NCBI GenBank assembly: GCA_029565535.1
Contig: JAKQNZ010000091.1
Span: 1-44,737, forward strand
Length of the DNA: 44,737 bases
Direction of reading: 5' to 3'
Origin: Candidatus Cloacimonadota bacterium
Lineage (GTDB): Bacteria > Cloacimonadota > Cloacimonadia > Cloacimonadales > Cloacimonadaceae
The notes below the pieces were generated by a model. The model ran no database searches, had not been told where the DNA came from, and worked only from the letters and a program-made list of their open reading frames with translations. Of this stretch, positions 1,698 to 42,290 are shown piece after piece. Positions within the stretch are counted from its first letter, which is position 1, and each line of letters opens with the position of its first letter. The translations under genes were made by a program, and so were the position numbers.

Positions 1698-3315
1698 CCC
1701 AATTAATGCAGTAGAATCCCCACTACTAAGAAAAGTGTTGCATATAATCGCCTGTAGCATTGATTTGAAATCAATCACAAACCCAAATCAAGACGGGAGA
1801 AAAATATGCAACAGAGTCATTCGAAAAAGAGCCTAGAAAAGAGTCAAGTCAAAATTGAGTTTAGCCCCAAATTGATCACATCGTGGGGAGGAACAGCAGC
1901 ATTATTTTCAAGGTATTTCGATAAGATCGGTTTTAGGGAACTGGTAGAGAAGATATATCCTGTCCATGAGTACTCCAACAACTCAACCGGAGTGTACTCG
2001 AAGCTATTATCGCTGTTTATCTCGGTTCTCAATGGCGGAACCAAGTTTTCACATATCAACTACATGGAGAATGGGGTCAAGATCTTCGAACGTTGTTTTA
2101 GAGTGAAGCGCCTGGTCAAATCATCCACCGGAATAACCAGATATTGGAACAAGTATGATAGCATGTCACTAACTGAGACATTGCTACAAAACATCAGCCA
2201 GTATTTCCTGCATCCGCTGCTGGAAAACGCGAATATCGAGAAGGATACCCTACGTTTTGATTCCACTGTGATCACGCGCTACGGAACGCAGGAGGGAGCC
2301 AAAAAGGGCTACAATCCCGCCAAGCGTGGAAGGCCGTCAAATCACCCGCAGTTGGCTTTTCTGGGAAGCGGATACACGGTCAACTTTTGGAATAGAGCAG
2401 GCAATACACGTTCTGCCAATGGTATTGTTGAATTCTATAACCAGACCAGAGGCTTCATAGGAGACATCAAGATAGAACGGGTATTAGCAGATAGTGGTTA
2501 CTATGACCGCAATTTCATCCTGAAGCTCGAGGAAGACAAGATGGAGTATGTGATTTCAACTCCCATACATCAATATTTCCAGAGGATCATATATAACCTG
2601 AGCGAATGGAAGCGGGTTGATGACGGTATCGAAGTTAGCGAATTCGCATACTCACATTATAACGAAATCTGGGGTGGTGAACGACGCTATGTAGTGGTCC
2701 GTCAGGAGATCAAAAGGCGTCCTAAAGCTACCGGCAAGCAGCTGAGCCTTTTCAAGGAAGAGGACTATGGCAAAGAGTATCGCCATTCCCTTTATATAAC
2801 AAACAACAAAACAGACACACCTTACGATATCTGGTGCTATTATCGTCCCCGTGCTAATGTGGAGAACATCATCGAAAACCTGAAGGATGGCTTTGGCCTT
2901 TCAGCTTACAACATGAAGAGCTTCTGGGCTACGGAAGCGGTTTTGATGACGATCTGCCTGATCCTTCATAATCTCGTGACAGTGCTCATCAAACAGGTTC
3001 TGCATACCAGTGATAAGGACAGGAAACTACGCACCATCAGGATGGAATATCTGGTCGTTCCCGCCCTTTTGGGAAAGGATGGCAGGGATGACGTTCTGAG
3101 GTTGGGGCTGACTAACCCCAAAAGACAAACAAAGTTCACAGAAGCACTTGAAAGACTGAAAGATATGAAGCTAACATTCTACTGCAATGCTGTTGAGAAT
3201 GAGGAGGTGGCATGAACTGAATCAATAGCAGTTGGTGTACACAAAAACACCCGGGAGATCAGTTAAAAATCAGTCCCAAAATAGAGACTGTGAAAACCCT
3301 ACTGCATTATTTGGG
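1698..3315 (+). mobile_element. IS1380-family insertion sequence, complete, 1618 bp
   Basis: The ends are 17-bp inverted repeats with one mismatch: CCCAATTAATGCAGTAG at 1698-1714 and the complement of CCCAAATAATGCAGTAG at 3299-3315. The element is flanked by the direct duplication GTAAA (1693-1697 and 3316-3320). It carries one intact transposase. Ends starting with CC and a short 4-5 bp duplication fit the IS1380 family. The insertion lies within a transglutaminase-like gene, and excision with one GTAAA copy restores that gene's reading frame. This is strong evidence for a single, recent and unrearranged insertion. Confidence 0.95.
1806..3215 (+). CDS. IS1380-family DDE transposase
   Basis: The 469-residue transposase catalyses cut-and-paste movement of the surrounding element. 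The RNase H-like DDE core is visible: the first Asp in RFDSTVITRYG (about residue 154), followed by the family signature KGYNPAKRGRPSNHP; the second Asp in VLADSGYYD (about 227); and the Glu in the YYRPRANVENIIENLKDGFG block (about 355), which matches the R-x-x-x-E-N-x-I-x-x-L-K motif of the IS1380 group. The start ATG has a GGGAG Shine-Dalgarno sequence. No frameshift or stop is present, so the element may still be active. The DDE placements come from motif reading, not alignment. Confidence 0.93.
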   Translation: MQQSHSKKSLEKSQVKIEFSPKLITSWGGTAALFSRYFDKIGFRELVEKIYPVHEYSNNSTGVYSKLLSLFISVLNGGTKFSHINYMENGVKIFERCFRVKRLVKSSTGITRYWNKYDSMSLTETLLQNISQYFLHPLLENANIEKDTLRFDSTVITRYGTQEGAKKGYNPAKRGRPSNHPQLAFLGSGYTVNFWNRAGNTRSANGIVEFYNQTRGFIGDIKIERVLADSGYYDRNFILKLEEDKMEYVISTPIHQYFQRIIYNLSEWKRVDDGIEVSEFAYSHYNEIWGGERRYVVVRQEIKRRPKATGKQLSLFKEEDYGKEYRHSLYITNNKTDTPYDIWCYYRPRANVENIIENLKDGFGLSAYNMKSFWATEAVLMTICLILHNLVTVLIKQVLHTSDKDRKLRTIRMEYLVVPALLGKDGRDDVLRLGLTNPKRQTKFTEALERLKDMKLTFYCNAVENEEVA

Positions 3316-5379
3316 GTAAATGCTTACTTTTAGCTCTGCCCTTTTTGCCAAATAAAGATCTAAGGTCATATTACTTGAAAAGGGATTAGGATAGGCATTC
3401 AGCAGCCTAAGGGCTTGCGGGACTTCGTTTGCGTCCTGAACTGCCGAACCATAGCTTTCGTAGATCATGGCCCCGCTTAGTTTCAGGGAATTCCGGTGAT
3501 GATGGGAATTGTCCATAAAAGCGAACCAATTCTGTCCAACAGGGATATCAAAACTGCCGATACTCCCCATGGTAGGAGCCACATAGCCAACAGCAGAGCC
3601 CATTCCATCGAGCTGCCAAAAGAGAATGTTATCCGCATCCATCACCATGAAAGATGCATCAGAGGGCTGATTTATAAACTTATAATGATAAGGTTGCGAA
3701 CCCAGACTATAGATGTCGTCCCAAAGGGTAAGCGAGGTGATGTAGTAGCCAAAACACTGAAAGGAAACGGCAAAGCGATGGTCGATCACGGGATCCTCAG
3801 GGGCCGGGATATCTTCAGGAACCGGAAGCGGCATGGCCATCGGGATCACCAGAATGTATTGGTAGATTTGGCCGTCCACGGAATTATCGATAAGCTGTGT
3901 ATAGGTGCCTGCGATTTCCGGGAAAAGACCGAAATTGGTTTCCACGCGGGCGCGGTAATTGCGGTTTTCTCCCACGCTGAAGGTCGCAAACCCATTATTG
4001 TCTGTGAATTGCTCGCAATCGTAGCGATTGCTGGTCTCCACGATGGCCAAGACCACTCTGGCTCCATCCACAGGACGCATACTGATGTCTACCACCTGGA
4101 TGCGGATTGTGGCATGACCCTCGGAATAGCGTTCAGTAACCGGGGTAAAAAGGCCGTCGGAACGAATCTCAAACACACTGCCAAAAACCTTGCCCCAGCC
4201 GTTTTCATAAACCAGGGGGTTATCGATGTAGCCATTCACGGGTTCCCAGGCTACCCAGTTTTCGTCCCAGAATTCGTTCCAAGTGTGGTCGGTGGAAACT
4301 GACAGAATGCTGGTGCAGGGAATCAGGGCCAGCCTGGCCACGGCCGAAGTAAGGTCGGCATATTCACCACAACGACCCATGCGTTTGGTAATGATGCGAA
4401 CCGGCTGATGGGGACGTTCGTTATTGGAGTTGAAACTCATGTTCTGGTTTATCCACCATTGGATGGTGCGAATGGCGTCGTTGCCAGTGCCATCCCTATT
4501 GAACAGAGTTTGGCACTCAGAAAGGGTATCGGCCAACACCGGATAGCCGGTTTCGTTCAGGGTATAAAGGTAGCTACGCCAGAATTTCCCAGTGGGGGGT
4601 TCGGCTATGTTATTATTGTGATTTGAGTTGTTTTCTACCACAGTGGGGTTTATGTAAGCCGCTATTTCGTCGGTTAGCTTGGGATGCACGATATACCAGT
4701 AATAAATATCTTTGGGGACGGTTATCTGCTGAATCTGACCAGTGGCGTCCTTTTTGTAATAACGGGTTGTGGAAAAGTAGTTTCCGCCAGTTGTAGCCGA
4801 GCCGGTATTCACTACCTCCACATAATTGAGCTGGGAATCAATGCTGTAGATAAATGCAGCGTTTTCGGTAAAAAGCTCGGGCCGGGCAAATGCGGAATTG
4901 AGGTATTGAGGCGAAGAATATGCTATGCAAAAGGCAATCTCATCCACAAAGGGATCCTGGCTATTAATGATTAGATTTGCCCACAGGCTTTGTTTTTCGG
5001 GAGTAAGGCTGGCCAAAACGCTACCCAATTCGGCTTGCAGCCAGGTGGGAGCTTTGCCGACGGCTTGTTTTCCTTCCGGGTTCAGAACTCCCTGACTGCC
5101 AAAAATCAGGGCCTGGGAACTTAGATTATCGAACTGCAGGCCATATTGCTGCTTGGCGTTCAGGCGAAAATTCAAATCCAGGTTTAACACCGGATTCCAC
5201 TCATCTCTTGCGGGTAATGGACAGGAGTACGGAATTGGAGTTTGGATAAATTCGGATACTGGCTCCTGGATACCGATGACAGCATCGGAACAAGGAACCT
5301 CGGAAACGGTTAAACCTCGCTCGCTGGCCCAAAGGCCAAAACCACTGAGGACCAAGGCAACTATCAGCAATTGTCTCAT
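3307..5379 (-). pseudogene. Secreted transglutaminase-like protein, 3' end cut off by the IS
   Basis: A signal peptide (MRQLLIVALVLSGFGLWA) leads into a long N-terminal region with no recognised domain. A transglutaminase-like papain-fold domain follows, with the Cys in GRCGEYADLTSA (about residue 337), the His in DHTWNEFW (about 365) and an Asp downstream in NGYIDNP. Next comes a carboxypeptidase-regulatory-like beta domain (about 430-510, ATIRIQVVDISMRPVDGARV) and a YPNPF linker (about 664) opening a type IX-style sorting domain. The frame then crosses into the IS after VSIY and ends two residues later (PK-stop). The normal last 58 residues lie at 1516-1692 (reconstructed length 746). A GAGGTG Shine-Dalgarno sequence supports the start. 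The truncated form keeps the catalytic triad but should lose its C-terminal export/anchoring signal. The substrate is unknown. Confidence 0.88.
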
Positions 5380-36590: not shown

Positions 36591-36715
36591 ATGTGGATAA
36601 TATGTGGATAAAGTTCGAGTTTTCTCCCACTTTGTACACGGTAAATATGCGACAACCGCTTTATCCACAAGTTATTCACACCTGTTCACAGATAGCTGTC
36701 CACATCTGTGGATAA
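36591..36715. other. Putative replication origin, DnaA-box cluster downstream of dnaA
   Basis: There are five close matches to TTATCCACA: on minus at 36592-36600, 36603-36611 and 36707-36715, and on plus at 36661-36669 and 36672-36680 (TTATTCACA). They lie in the 288-bp gap between dnaA and the lipoprotein gene. An AT-rich stretch (36712-36760) follows and could be the unwinding element. A second cluster flanks dnaA on the other side, so the origin may be bipartite. Confidence 0.75.
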
Positions 36716-36751: not shown

Positions 36752-38083
36752 CTAATTCCGAATGTCGTTTATTGTTTGTTCCACTTTACTGCGAAAATCC
36801 TGATCTTCCCTAAAGCGGTTTTCGATCATTTTCTTGGCATGTAAAACCGTGGTATGATCCTTACGGTTGTAGTACTCGGCAATTTCCTTCAGGGAAAGCT
36901 GGGGAATCAGATAATTGGCCAGATACATCGCTACCTGACGAGGCATAGATTGGCTGGATTTACGCGATTTTTCCATGATTTGCGGAACGCTGATTTCAAA
37001 GTTTTTACACACCTTTTGAGTGATCGAGTCTAGGGTGATGTTTTTCAGTTTTTCAGTGATCATATCAGCCAGGATGTCGGAAGCAGTGCTTACGTCTATC
37101 TCTTCGGGATTCAGCTTGTTATAAGAAGAGAAAGCCAGTATCCTGATCAGGGAGCCTTCCAGAGCGCGAACGCTGCTAGTGATGTTATCGGCGATAAAAT
37201 CGAACACCTCATCCCTCATTTGAATGTTTTCCGGTTCTGCTTTTTTGCGCAGGATGGCCACTCTGGTTTCAAAATCAGGATTCTTCAGATCGCATAGCAA
37301 ACCACTTTCAAAGCGGGTTACCAGCCTTTTTTCCAGATCGGGGATATCCTTGGGAGGCCGGTCGGAAGTGAGCACGATCTGCTTTTTATTATCGAACAGC
37401 GCATTGAAGGTGTGAAAAAACTCTTCCTGAGTTCCTTCCTTATGCGACAAAAAGTGAATGTCGTCCACCAACAGCAAATCCACCTTGCGAAACTTGGCCC
37501 TGAATTCCGGCATCTTGTTGCCCCTAATGCCTTCTATCATCTCATTGGTAAAGGCCTCGGAAGTGATATAAAAAATGCTGCAATTGCGTCCTTCCTTTAG
37601 TACAAAATTTCCGATTGCCTGCATCAGGTGAGTTTTACCCATTCCGCTTTCGCCATAGATAAAAAGCGGATTATAGGTGTAGCCAGGTGATTCGGCCACA
37701 GCCTTGGCTGCACTATAGGCAAAGTTGTTATTGCGTCCCACCACAAATTCCTCGAAACTATAACGCTCGTTCAGCTTGGTGTTCAGGGTAACTTTTTTGC
37801 TGTTGTATTCGGGAACCTCACCCTCGGCTCCAGCGGTTTTGTGCGATTGGCTGATAAATTCCACCTCGTAGCGGCGGCCATAAAGTCCATATGAAATTTC
37901 ACTGAGCACATTCCGGTAATTCTGATTGAGGTAATTGGCTGAGAACTGGGTGGCAACCCTTACCATAAGTTGCTTGTCGCTCATATCCACCAATTGCGTA
38001 TCCGAAAACCATGTCTTGAAACTCTGGGGATTGATATTCTCCTCCAGCTTATCCAGAATGTTCTGCCAGATATCCTGATCCAT
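36752..38083 (-). CDS. dnaA: Chromosomal replication initiator DnaA
   Basis: The 443-residue initiator binds DnaA boxes and opens the origin. Domain I (about 1-80) starts MDQDIWQNILDKLEENI. The AAA+ core has Walker A GESGMGKTHLMQAIG (about 144), Walker B LLLVDDIHFLSHKEG (about 206) and a sensor region near VTRFESGL. Domain IV has the DNA-binding helix-turn-helix with YYNRKDHTTVLHAKKMIENR (about 405-424). The length is normal and the linker domain II is short. The clusters of TTATCCACA on both sides support autoregulation and origin location. Confidence 0.98.
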   Translation of the reverse strand: MDQDIWQNILDKLEENINPQSFKTWFSDTQLVDMSDKQLMVRVATQFSANYLNQNYRNVLSEISYGLYGRRYEVEFISQSHKTAGAEGEVPEYNSKKVTLNTKLNERYSFEEFVVGRNNNFAYSAAKAVAESPGYTYNPLFIYGESGMGKTHLMQAIGNFVLKEGRNCSIFYITSEAFTNEMIEGIRGNKMPEFRAKFRKVDLLLVDDIHFLSHKEGTQEEFFHTFNALFDNKKQIVLTSDRPPKDIPDLEKRLVTRFESGLLCDLKNPDFETRVAILRKKAEPENIQMRDEVFDFIADNITSSVRALEGSLIRILAFSSYNKLNPEEIDVSTASDILADMITEKLKNITLDSITQKVCKNFEISVPQIMEKSRKSSQSMPRQVAMYLANYLIPQLSLKEIAEYYNRKDHTTVLHAKKMIENRFREDQDFRSKVEQTINDIRN

Positions 38084-38108: not shown

Positions 38109-38240
38109 TTATCCACAGGCCCAAAAGGCTTTTGCTGCCGTTCATCGATGTTTACAACTGCTTTTATCGCCAACCTTTAGCTTAGGTAAATGGAGGCTGG
38201 CGGTGACAACTGAATCCCGGTTATCCACAAGTTATCCACA
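38109..38240. other. DnaA-box cluster upstream of dnaA
   Basis: Three perfect TTATCCACA boxes lie on plus at 38109-38117, 38221-38229 and 38232-38240, the last two separated by two bases. They sit in the dnaA promoter region and may serve both origin function and autorepression of dnaA. Confidence 0.75.
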
Positions 38241-38241
38241 C

Positions 38242-39018
38242 AATTGTCATAACGATTATTATCTCTGTGCTTTAACTTTTCTCAGCAGGTGCCTGAGAAC
38301 CTGCCTGGCCAAAAAAATCCAGAGTTCTGCATTTGTCAAGCAGCTAAACATCCACACTGCCGTGGCTTAGCTATCCTTGTGAATCGCTAACTACATGCTA
38401 AATAGAAAACTATATCCCTATATATCGCTTTCATGATTCAATTAGTAATGCCATAATTTATTGTTTATGAACAGATTAACGATTTTAGTATTTCGCTGTA
38501 ATCAAGGGTGGTGAAGTGGCGTGGTGGTGATGAGAATGAAAGATTAACAAGCTTTCTGCGAATGGCAGCTTAGCCTTCTGTTAAACACTTAAGAAAAGCA
38601 GAGTTATCCAGAAATAAGCAGAGATTCTTCTTATAAACCAAAACTATGCAGTAATGCAGTTCCCTGTCCCTGGAATGCCAGCGTCTCGCAGGCAAGATAT
38701 TACCAGCCTCTGGCTGTTTTTTATGTCAGCGAGACGCTGGCAGACCTTTTCTGGTGAGACACCGTAATTCCGTGCGCTGGAATTCTACTGCATTATCTGG
38801 GATGAATATGTGACATCGGTATTAATCTCTGTTGCTATTTGTTTCTTCTGTGCATTCGGTGTTCTTCGGTGGCCTAGTTTTTAAACCACTGTTCAATTCC
38901 CTTATCCGCGATATTCTGTTCAATCCGTCAAATCGTATGTTCGTTTGTAACATCACTCTGTCGGGACTGGACACTATCTCAGTCAGGATGACGGAGCTAC
39001 CTGGGATCCCACCTTATA
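38242..39018. other. Gene-free repeat-rich stretch beside dnaA
   Basis: There is no open frame with a ribosome site or protein-like composition, and no tRNA fold was found by eye. The stretch contains fragments of the degenerate GAGAAAAGCAGAG and CGGTGTTCTTCGGTG type and one IS-end-bounded element (38638-38801). The 69-codon frame at 38832-39041 reads through repeats and is not considered a gene. Confidence 0.6.
38638..38801. mobile_element. MITE-like element with IS1380-type ends
   Basis: The right end CTACTGCATTATCTGGG (38785-38801) matches the IS end at 3299-3315 in 16 of 17 bases. Its complement continues AGAAT as the left IS end does. The left end CCAAAACTATGCAGTA (38638-38653) matches the same sequence with one insertion and a substitution. 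Inside lies a 13-bp perfect inverted repeat (GCCAGCGTCTCGC at 38677-38689, complement at 38729-38741), with a small CAGCC/GGCTG hairpin followed by six T between its arms. No coding capacity and no clear target duplication are visible. A non-autonomous derivative mobilised by the IS transposase is the likeliest reading. Confidence 0.6.
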
Positions 39019-39233: not shown

Positions 39234-39263
39234 TTGACAGGATTCAAAACCTGTAATCTTTAT
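39234..39263 (+). promoter_or_regulatory. Possible promoter of the cyclase-ATPase gene
   Basis: A perfect TTGACA (39234-39239) is followed, 18 bases on, by CTTTAT (39258-39263) within the AT-rich run TAATCTTTATAAACTTAAT. The gene's start codon lies 28 bases downstream. The -10 match is imperfect. Confidence 0.4.
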
Positions 39264-39290
39264 AAACTTAATCTCTGCTCTGGAGGCTAT

Positions 39291-42290
39291 ATGACAATAG
39301 ACACAGATCATGACTTCTTTTTTGACCTTATCGAGCCGGAAGAAGAAAACCGGCTGCAGCGCGACAAACTGAAACTGAAGGAAGGCGAACGCAGGGAAGT
39401 GAGCATTCTCTTCGCCGATGTGAAGAACTCCACAATGATGGGCAGCCGGCTGGATCCGGAAGTGTTTCACCGCAAACTGGACGAGTTGATGAAGCGCTTC
39501 ACTCGCTGCATCACATATTATGGCGGCTACGTGGATAAATATATGGGCGATGGAATCATGGCGCTCTTTGGGGCAAAAAAAGCCACGGAACAGGACACCG
39601 AACGCGCCATTCTTGCCGCTCTACGCATGATCGATCAGGTAACACTATACAATCTGGGAAAACAAAGTGAAAACGCCGCTCCGGAAGAGCAAATTGGCAT
39701 CCGAATCGGGATAAATTCCGGACTGGTGTTGGTGGGCAAGGTCGGAGAGGCACGGGAAGGGGATTTCACGGTTACCGGTGCGGCAGTACATTTGGCCCAG
39801 CGCATGGAAGTCAACGCCCCGGTAGGTAAAATCCTGATGCCTCTGCATACCAAGCAGGCCGCAGAACGCTTCTTTGATTTTGAGTATTTTGGCAGCGTGC
39901 AAGCCAAAGGCTTTGCCGAACCCATCGAAACCTTTGCAGTGCTGAAACCTAAGCTGGAAAAGGACAACCGCTGGTATCGAAGGCTTTCGGTTTTTGTTGG
40001 ACGAGACGCCGAACTTTCTGTGCTGAGCAAAGCTTTCACCAGTTTGGAGCGAAGAATCCAAGGCCTGGCTTTGGACGTGGAAGAGACAAGAGTAATAGGT
40101 TTATGTGCCGATGCCGGATTGGGGAAATCGCGCTTGGTTTACGAATTTACCGCACCCCTGATAAACCGCGCCCAGATTATGGCGGCTACCGCTTCGGGCT
40201 TGGTGAAAACCCCCTTCAATCTCTTCAGCAATCTGCTGGAACACGAATTTGGACTGCAGATTTCTGAAGACCGGGCTTCCAAGAAAAAAAAACTGGAAAA
40301 AGGGATCAGACAGCTTTTCGACAGCCAGTCTGATAGCTCAGCACCCGCCCTTTGGGATTGCCTGCCCCTGATCGGATTCCTTTTGGAAATCCCGTATCCA
40401 GATGCGCGGCTAAAGCTGGGCGGGCCTGACCTGCTCACACATCTGAAGATCGCCCTGAAAACAGTTATTCTGCAGATCATCAGCCATAAAACCAGACTTG
40501 GCAAACCCCTTATTCTGATCCTGGACGATCTGCACTGGCTGGACGAATCCAGCGCCGCAGTTCTGGACGAACTACTGCAGATCTTGCTGCTTGTGCGTGA
40601 ACATGGAGCATTTTTACCGGTGTTGATAGTGATGCAATACAGGCAGGATTATACCGTTCCAGAAGGTATAGCCAAACTGGAAAGCTTCCGGCAGTTGGAA
40701 CTGAAACCGCTGTCCGACAACGAGATAATGCGGCTGATCAGGTTCCACACCAAAGATCAGCAAATCCCGGAGGAAACCCTGGAAAAAGTGCGGATTCTCA
40801 GCTCCGGAAACCCCTTCTACCTGGAGGAATGGTGCAACTACCTGCATGAATTGCCAAAACATGAGCTCTATGACCTGCCTGTGCCCAATAACCTGCATGC
40901 GCTGATCCTCTCCCGGCTCGACCTGCTTGATTCCGCTATTCGTATCCTGCTGCAAAAAGCCTCTGTGATCGGTCATGAATTTCTGGTGGAAATCCTGCGT
41001 TGGATGGAGAGTAAGCTCTATAACCCCAGCGATTTGGAAGACACGCTAAAGAACTTGGAACAGCAGTCCTTTATCCTGAAGCTGCTGGGTTTTGACTACT
41101 CGGCTTACTTTTTCAAGCATATCATCACCCGCGATGTGGCTTATCAAACCCTGCTGCTGGAAAACCGCAAGATCTTGCATTCCCTTGCCGCCCAGGCAAT
41201 TGAAGAGCTCTATCCAGACCGCAACGAAGAGTTTTTGTATCAGCTAGCCGATCATTACCACCGCGCCGAAAACCCCGAAAAAGCGGTTTTCTATCTGGAA
41301 AAGGCTGCCCTTGCCGCTAAAAAAGCCTACAGCAACAGGCTGAGCATAGACCTCTTTGAAAAGCTGCTCCAGTGGAAAATTGCAAAGGTGGAAGGGTGGA
41401 ATGGTGAAACCCTTTCCCCAGCCCGCATCCTGCTCCACCTCACCGAGATAAAATGGCTGATAGGACAATGGGATTCGTCCGACCTCGATCTCCAACAAGC
41501 CCTAAGCTTTGCCGAACAATCCCAAGACCTCGAAGAACTCTTCGACTGCCACCGCCTGAAAGGCATCTCTGCCTTCCAACGCGGTAATTTGGAGGCTGCC
41601 AAAACATCGTGGGATAAGTGTCTGAATCTTGCGGATTCGTTGAACGGTTCTGACGAGAAACAGGTCGCTTCAAGCGAGCGACCCTACGTACAGGCGGACG
41701 CCGTTCCGCCCTCAACATCAGGGCCCCTTGCCACCTCGCCCTCTCAACTTCTAGCTATAATCCACGGCAATCTCGGCATCTGGTACCAACACCACAAGCT
41801 CTATGACGAAGCCCTTTCCCACCACACCCAAAGCCTGGAATACGCCTCCGGCATCAAAGACGAGCTTCGCAAAGCCCGCACCCTCACCAACCTTGGTTTG
41901 ATGTTCCTTGGCCAAAAAGACTACCCTAAAGCCGAAAGCCATTTCCTTGCCTGTTTGGAGATCGCCGAAGCCAATCAATACTTGAAAGAACAATCCATCG
42001 CCCTGGGCAATCTGGGCTTCCTTGCCTACAAACAAGGCGACCTGGATAAAGCCATGCAGTTCTACGAAAAGAAATGGCTGCTCGTGGATAAGATGGACGA
42101 CAAAGCTGAACTGATCAAAGTACTGGGTAATATCGCCAATATCCATCGTGATAAAGGACAGCACAGAGAAGCGCTGGAGTATTACGAGAAAGTATTAGAA
42201 CTTAAACTGCCCCAAGGCAATGAAAAAGAAATAAAAATAACGAAAGATCAAATTGAGGCTATGAGAAACAAACTTGTTAGTAATACATAA
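39291..42290 (+). CDS. Class III nucleotide cyclase-like / AAA ATPase / TPR regulator
   Basis: The 999-residue cytoplasmic protein starts at the ATG with GGAGG six bases upstream. The N-terminal cyclase domain (about 35-225) has both metal aspartates (SILFADVKNST and KYMGDGIMALFGA) and a purine-pocket Lys. The transition-state motif reads TGAAVHLAQR, with His167 where Asn is usual. A STAND-like AAA ATPase follows (about 240-600) with Walker A CADAGLGKSRLVYEF and Walker B LILILDDLHWLDESS. Tetratricopeptide repeats fill the C-terminus (about 660-980, LGNLGFLAYKQGDLDKAMQFYEKKW). Residues about 788-815 form a low-complexity linker encoded by a palindromic repeat. It is likely a signal-integrating regulator; the product is uncertain. 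Confidence 0.9.
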   Translation: MTIDTDHDFFFDLIEPEEENRLQRDKLKLKEGERREVSILFADVKNSTMMGSRLDPEVFHRKLDELMKRFTRCITYYGGYVDKYMGDGIMALFGAKKATEQDTERAILAALRMIDQVTLYNLGKQSENAAPEEQIGIRIGINSGLVLVGKVGEAREGDFTVTGAAVHLAQRMEVNAPVGKILMPLHTKQAAERFFDFEYFGSVQAKGFAEPIETFAVLKPKLEKDNRWYRRLSVFVGRDAELSVLSKAFTSLERRIQGLALDVEETRVIGLCADAGLGKSRLVYEFTAPLINRAQIMAATASGLVKTPFNLFSNLLEHEFGLQISEDRASKKKKLEKGIRQLFDSQSDSSAPALWDCLPLIGFLLEIPYPDARLKLGGPDLLTHLKIALKTVILQIISHKTRLGKPLILILDDLHWLDESSAAVLDELLQILLLVREHGAFLPVLIVMQYRQDYTVPEGIAKLESFRQLELKPLSDNEIMRLIRFHTKDQQIPEETLEKVRILSSGNPFYLEEWCNYLHELPKHELYDLPVPNNLHALILSRLDLLDSAIRILLQKASVIGHEFLVEILRWMESKLYNPSDLEDTLKNLEQQSFILKLLGFDYSAYFFKHIITRDVAYQTLLLENRKILHSLAAQAIEELYPDRNEEFLYQLADHYHRAENPEKAVFYLEKAALAAKKAYSNRLSIDLFEKLLQWKIAKVEGWNGETLSPARILLHLTEIKWLIGQWDSSDLDLQQALSFAEQSQDLEELFDCHRLKGISAFQRGNLEAAKTSWDKCLNLADSLNGSDEKQVASSERPYVQADAVPPSTSGPLATSPSQLLAIIHGNLGIWYQHHKLYDEALSHHTQSLEYASGIKDELRKARTLTNLGLMFLGQKDYPKAESHFLACLEIAEANQYLKEQSIALGNLGFLAYKQGDLDKAMQFYEKKWLLVDKMDDKAELIKVLGNIANIHRDKGQHREALEYYEKVLELKLPQGNEKEIKITKDQIEAMRNKLVSNT
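41663..41710. repeat. Double palindrome inserted in frame in the TPR region
   Basis: Two neighbouring hairpins occur: GGTCGCT with AGCGACC (41663-41669, 41677-41683), and GGCGGA with TCCGCC (41693-41698, 41705-41710). The G+C-rich wording and the encoded linker (VASSERPYVQADAVPPST) differ from the helical repeats on both sides, so this looks like a REP-type sequence inserted in frame. Confidence 0.6.

Follow-up and report, generated by a model that had tools for sequence, protein, structure and literature searches.

The 164-bp sequence at positions 38638–38801 of the window, the whole 44,737-nucleotide stretch of DNA under analysis, is a member of a MITE family that has IS1380-like ends and carries captured REP-like repeats. 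The distribution of group II intron junctions across the genome shows this MITE to be the main niche of the intron in this bacterium. The explanation as a whole, in which an IS1380-ended MITE with captured REP-like pairs later became the target of a IIC-like intron, is considered highly probable.

The MITE copy in the window and its relatives

The features of the window copy, and of the complete IS located in the same window, are as follows.

38638..38801, minus strand: intron-free MITE copy, A-end on the right and B-end on the left, with the boundaries common to the family
38780..38801, minus strand: A-end terminal repeat CCCAGATAATGCAGTAGAATTC, 16/17 against the IS right end, conserved in about 30 A-ends
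38638..38659, plus strand: B-end terminal repeat CCAAAACTATGCAGTAATGCAG; family B-end consensus CCCAAACAATGCAGTAATGCAG
38633..38637, unstranded: left flank ATAAA, 4/5 against the right flank; decayed target-site duplication, judged from the sequence and the family statistic
38802..38806, unstranded: right flank ATGAA; decayed target-site duplication, judged in the same way
38676..38694, minus strand: TGCCTGCGAGACGCTGGCA (consensus TGCCAGCGAGACGCTGGCA), forming the second hairpin of a REP-like pair; the intron targets its 3′ edge
38672..38673, minus strand: vacant insertion point of the intron, ...GGCATTC^CAGGGACAGGG; other copies have the intron here
38704..38716, unstranded: middle hairpin CAGCC-TCT-GGCTG with TTTTTT behind it on the plus strand; terminator-like
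38724..38742, unstranded: TGTCAGCGAGACGCTGGCA, a hairpin that matches the reverse complement of the one at 38676–38694 at 89%
38750..38766, unstranded: decayed outer hairpin, consensus TCCGGTG-AGA-CACCGGA, adjoining GGAATTCC; within the inverted REP-like pair it is the second hairpin
1698..3315, plus strand: complete IS sharing the terminal repeats of the MITE, with an exact 5-bp duplication, GTAAA, at 1693–1697 and 3316–3320
1806..3215, plus strand: uninterrupted IS1380-like DDE transposase of 469 aa, with PF13701 and NF033539 profile matches

An earlier note on this DNA had proposed that the sequence shares the terminal repeats of the IS, with an indel at its left end, and that it encloses a 13-bp perfect inverted repeat and no gene, all of which is borne out. 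The right end (38785–38801, CCCAGATAATGCAGTAG on the minus strand) agrees in 16 of 17 bases with the right repeat of the IS, and in 15 with the left; when up to three mismatches are allowed, the window contains exactly three such terminal-repeat sites, against 0.11 expected by chance. The B-end consists of the A-end repeat with a short TGCAGTAA duplication, its terminal CCC mutated to CCA. The perfect inverted repeat sits within a 19-nt, 89% complementary pair (38676–38694 and 38724–38742), and no ORF of at least 100 aa covers the copy. Its position beside DnaA boxes also holds: it lies upstream of dnaA, approximately 400 bp past the boxes at 38109–38240, with further boxes at 36592–36715, and is neighboured by dnaA (36752–38083, minus strand) on one side and a cyclase/TPR gene (39234–42290) on the other.

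A search of the 2.6-Mb draft genome (234 contigs) with a 231-bp query returns partial or complete matches in about 45 places, representing at least 30 insertions of a 160–170 bp element. These comprise 17 complete or near-complete uninterrupted copies, 12 copies with one half running into the intron (including C213, a much shortened copy) and one cut by a contig end; seven further halves joined to the intron 3′ end possibly belong to the 12 intron-joined copies. In the complete copies, homology begins and ends at the IS1380-like terminal repeats. The occurrence of a single copy only, named in the earlier note as fatal to its reading, is thereby dismissed, and the further copies with the same ends that it had called for are present. 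The element has the characteristics of a MITE, being short (about 165 bp), non-coding (no ORF of at least 100 aa), multicopy (at least 30 copies) and bounded by terminal inverted repeats common to an autonomous IS of the same genome (16/17 and 15/17).

The 23 aligned copies differ from their consensus by a mean of 4.6% (range 1.3–9.2%; 5.9% for the window copy) and from each other by 8.4%, a star-like divergence that suggests a past burst of this family. Extra tandem hairpin units are found in copies C156, C165, C185 and C215. The MITE was not found in eight congeners and 52 other relatives, save for fragments of hairpins in G004, one of the congeners, and short matches to the ends in G042, nor did an exact-pattern search of viral contigs reveal it with the pattern tried.

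Mobility and the candidate transposase

The 5-bp flanks of 13 complete copies are TTTAA-like, and their paired flanks agree in 50 of 65 bases compared with 41 of 65 after re-pairing (p = 0.0006), so that they behave as degenerate 5-bp duplications; as only three of the 13 are exact duplications, how long and how exact the duplication is has been derived from this statistic. The expectation of flanking 4–5 bp duplications is thus upheld in degenerate form. Empty sites are found as well. When the flanks of the C146 insertion are joined minus one duplication, they align unbroken to a host repeat present elsewhere in the genome (...GTCAGTTAAAGC...), of which at least seven uninterrupted paralogous copies were identified.

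G000:C146:9344-9771 (flanks of L004): host repeat of about 180 bp, with paralogs on C157, C223, C71, C102, C94, C232 and C116

This repeat family (CCTGGGACGTAAGTCCCAGGTATGC...), with at least eight copies, serves as the insertion site for several MITE copies. A match in the congener G005 across the C33 insertion point (76% identity) was considered as an orthologous empty site and rejected, since it falls within a repeat and thus represents an empty repeat copy rather than orthology. For the window copy, no orthologous empty site was found in the congeners, where only 48-bp stretches of one flank were matched, in G004.

These flanks also bear on whether the family could be an old, immobile MITE that gained its copies through segmental duplication or homologous recombination and not by transposing. 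Such an origin would suit the finding that every copy is mutated (1.3–9.2% from consensus), and copies C33 and C215 do share a flanking repeat; however, nearly all flanks are different, they carry duplication-like TTTAA motifs, and empty paralogous sites exist, which together require past transposition and leave this alternative improbable. The MITE may nevertheless be inactive at present.

The 469-aa transposase scores 84.9 bits against PF13701, above the cut-off, and 163.8 bits over nearly the whole of the NF033539 (IS1380) model, below its cut-off of 180, which together place the candidate parent in the IS1380 family. Several relatives of this transposase are assigned by name to Cloacimonadota, the lineage of the organism. 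The window's transposase is the only full-length copy seen among 50 genomes of the family, and because the intact transposase is found in the window alone, the window's IS is the obvious, if unproven, candidate for the supply of transposase to the MITE. We infer that this transposase may act in trans on MITE ends that are 15–16/17 identical to its own, not perfectly so, around an interior that is unrelated. A simple internal deletion of the window's IS was rejected as the origin of the MITE, as the two have no interior sequence in common; used as a query against the window's genome, the IS matched itself and remnants only, and no MITE.

Other miniatures of this kind are found among the relatives. 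In the sister genus G031, deletion derivatives of 345–346 bp with IS1380 ends (L168–L170) join transposase residues ~2–47 to residue ~377 onward, and a 388-bp IS1380-ended miniature is found in G042 (L176), of another family; these are independent miniatures with the same IS ends. In the MAG DJKA110_ANT-KO_bin.50, IS1380 right ends with the last 15–22 transposase residues are fused to repeated non-coding cargo (TAACGCATAACGGATAACG...; L101–L105), a candidate for another family of non-autonomous IS1380 derivatives. The window's IS itself (region 1500–1700) apparently lies within a coding region that resembles, by eye, the C-terminus of a Por_Secre_tail sorting domain (reverse strand, 1500–1697).

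Hairpin pairs in the interior and the intron behind them

The interior had previously been described as a palindrome that might be a recruited REP-like sequence. The inverted repeat stands, but in place of one palindrome the MITE contains about four hairpins, that is, two inverted copies of a two-hairpin unit of the form [hairpin]-NNCC(T/A)-[hairpin]-ATTCC. Read in one orientation, with approximate spacers, the interior is GGAATTCC-[hairpin]-AAGGTC-[hairpin]-TAAAAA-[hairpin]-TAAAACCT-[hairpin]-ATTCC. Units without IS ends stand free on C119 (twice), C45, C10, C125, C60, C146, C232, C187, C126 and C151, and related hairpin fragments are found in G004. Across 12 aligned units, 96.9% of the cells of the second hairpin are paired and 20 show double changes, and the covariation score of 0.55 compares with 0.20 for shuffled alignments, none of 500 shuffles reaching it. 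Like REP/BIME sequences, these hairpin pairs are intergenic, recur, and vary in their stems in a compensatory manner; "REP-like" is used here in that sense, RAYT association and a GTAG tag, the strict marks of REP, forming no part of the evidence. Since homologous hairpin pairs with compensatory changes stand free in the genome, the interior is, on these comparisons, a captured REP-like module and not IS sequence, which supports the recruitment idea. A further locus (L160, G000:C195:7950-8400) contains four tandem copies of a unit of about 65 bp with decayed REP-like hairpins (CCTGCCTCTGGCTGG / CAGCCTCTGGCTG).

The REP-like interior and the free pairs would also be expected if a Y1 (RAYT-like) transposase had spread a repeat of REP/BIME type whose IS1380-like ends were incidental, and the genome does encode three Y1_Tnp genes, one approximately 600 bp from the free pair on C10. 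However, the repeated unit stops at the IS-like terminal repeats with their TTTAA-like flanks rather than at the hairpins, the empty sites are cut at the IS-like ends, and no GTAG-type tag was seen. A RAYT-moved REP was rejected as the mover of the MITE unit on these boundaries, and this possibility, already largely refuted, is thought extremely unlikely.

The hairpins might alternatively have been selected chiefly as transcription terminators or mRNA stabilisers, with transposition a side aspect. They fold strongly (single-strand DNA folding gives z = −5.4 against shuffles for the window copy and z = −7.5 for a better preserved copy), and one, with TTTTTT after it, has a terminator-like score. 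Against this, differences between copies resemble random decay, with broken stems in the window copy, compensatory changes are not evident between MITE copies, and the MITE is absent from congeners; selection of this kind as the main cause is accordingly judged very unlikely.

Many contigs end inside the MITE with GTGCGCCTGTGCGTG..., and others start with ...CTCCCCTACCCCTAT followed by the remainder of the MITE; these edges are the opposite termini of a group II intron, with boundaries GTGCG...CTAT and a domain V; matches to the Rfam model RF00029 score 59.6–60.2 bits, the 3′ end here giving 59.6. A further Rfam match, to STnc430, was discarded as below the gathering score. The junction lies directly 3′ of the hairpin (...CGCTGGCATTC^CAGGG), the insertion point being ...GCCAGCGAGACGCTGGCATTC^CAGGGACAGGG, and in the MITE copies the intron nearly always has the same orientation and position. 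At L020 (G000:C48) and L024 (G000:C32:12726-12964), one hairpin is inverted (a TCT rather than AGA loop) or the intron is opposite to the MITE orientation, oddities that possibly reflect cruciform inversion or insertion at a mirror hairpin. The window copy is an empty target.

Twelve of 15 intron 5′ junctions are in the MITE, and the remaining three in free hairpin pairs. As MITE elements make up only about 0.25% of the genome, this concentration is what identifies them as the intron's main niche. IBS1, made up of the last four exon bases ahead of the insertion point, reads ATTC in 14 of the junctions and ACTC in one. It is almost an even question, leaning slightly against, whether target density alone accounts for this pattern, the intron entering wherever a hairpin is followed by ATTC and the MITE providing most such sites, with no lasting consequence for either element. 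The three insertions in free REP-like pairs and the sister introns behind unrelated hairpins agree with this account, which narrows the preferred explanation without contradicting it; with 12 of 15 junctions falling in so small a fraction of the genome, the MITE is still the main niche.

The intron interior of the window's genome is unassembled in this short-read draft, and its EBS1 and IEP are accordingly predicted from sister species. A PF00078 search for reverse transcriptase genes in the assembled genome returned only a Cas6-RT-Cas1, the intron's own IEP not being among them; this fusion-like ORF of 905 aa on C222 (L079) was considered as the IEP and rejected as unrelated. Intron relatives are present in 13 of 50 genomes of the family, the window's genome included. 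Complete introns of sister species are 1.87 kb in length with one ORF, and the congener IEP matches TIGR04416 (group II RT/maturase) at 375 bits and has RVT_1 and GIIM but lacks HNH. Among solved proteins it is nearest to the GsI-IIC RT and to the 7uim group II RT/maturase. Such a class C-type IEP without an endonuclease domain was thus observed in sister species only. Their introns lie nearly all directly behind hairpins, as at nearly all 5′ junctions here, and the hairpin sequences are unrelated. Among six aligned sister introns, a tetranucleotide covaries with the exon bases in 23 of 24 possible pairs, compared with 16 at the next best position, which identifies it as EBS1, the partner of IBS1. 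The boundaries, the endonuclease-less IEP, the stem-loop target and the EBS1–IBS1 pairing suggest a group IIC-like intron, a class-C-like assignment made from these features without an IEP tree. In G017 (L120, L121), a related intron is found in at least 15 places, behind hairpins where seen, probably a second expansion of this intron lineage.

Order of events and relation to known elements

Among the intron 5′ ends, 5 of 1711 bases vary (0.3%), every one of them at a single position, whereas the 3′ ends are identical. As MITE copies differ by 4.6%, the MITE probably spread first and the intron later, provided that assembly has not homogenised the intron ends, which can occur with repeat ends in a short-read draft and makes this a weaker form of dating. 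In the proposed sequence of events, REP-like pairs would once have been bracketed by IS ends and moved in trans by an IS1380-type transposase recognising CCCARATAATGCAGTAG ends, of which the simplest source would be the window's IS or a close relative since lost. Each transposition would have spread the two inverted hairpin pairs. Later, a IIC-like intron would have targeted the 3′ edge of the hairpin (stem, ATTC as IBS1, insertion point, C as IBS3), filling many MITE copies and a few free REP-like pairs, with the MITE spreading landing pads for the retro-intron through intergenic DNA, where they are harmless.

MITEs, REP capture and stem-loop targeting by IIC introns are each known already. 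The CCC-starting terminal repeats, 5-bp A+T-rich duplication and DDE transposase matching IS1380 models are as in the IS1380 family (IS1380, ISEcp1), whereas the MITE has no ORF and an interior unrelated to the IS, and the window's transposase scores below the NCBI equivalog cut-off. IS1380 transposases serve as an outgroup to piggyBac (PMC10813416); eukaryotic piggyBac elements also have CCC-starting ends and a TTAA-type target (PMC10813416), however the elements described here are prokaryotic and have degenerate 5-bp TTTAA-like flanks in place of a strict TTAA. Like other bacterial MITEs, including those of Thiomargarita, the element is short, non-coding, multicopy and hairpin-rich with IS-like ends, and MITE–intron nesting also has a precedent in the group I "MITEtron", in which a MITE lies inside a group I intron (PMC4853749). 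Here the nesting is reversed, with a group II intron inside the MITE, at one fixed hairpin, many times. The intergenic hairpin pairs with compensatory changes resemble REP/BIME sequences, but travel inside a DDE-type MITE with no GTAG tag or proven RAYT partner. In P. putida KT2440, two of nine group II introns are in REPs (PMC1525189).

Bacterial group II introns are known to target homing sites, terminators and attC sites (reviewed in PMC4424553), and the structure of stem-loop recognition by IIC introns has been described (PMC10190682). The present intron resembles group IIC introns in inserting on the 3′ side of a DNA stem-loop, in its short IBS1/IBS3 pairing and, in the sister species, in an endonuclease-less IEP near the GsI-IIC RT, and differs in that its target is a MITE-borne REP-like hairpin with ATTC, rather than a T-tract or attC. 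In the open-access literature, searched mostly by title, no report was found of a MITE as the principal home of a group II intron, of group II introns in Cloacimonadota, or of IS1380 MITEs.

It is possible, although on balance doubtful, that the elements form a three-layer system in which the IS1380-type MITE with its captured hairpins provides genome-wide pads on which the intron depends and the MITE could in turn carry the intron; if so, DNA transposition and retrotransposition would help each other. These findings add IS1380-ended miniatures to the elements of Cloacimonadota and offer a concrete case of DNA transposition creating a retroelement niche, in the likely order of MITE, then intron. 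A MITE that multiplies the target would explain the expansion of the IIC-like intron without harm to genes.
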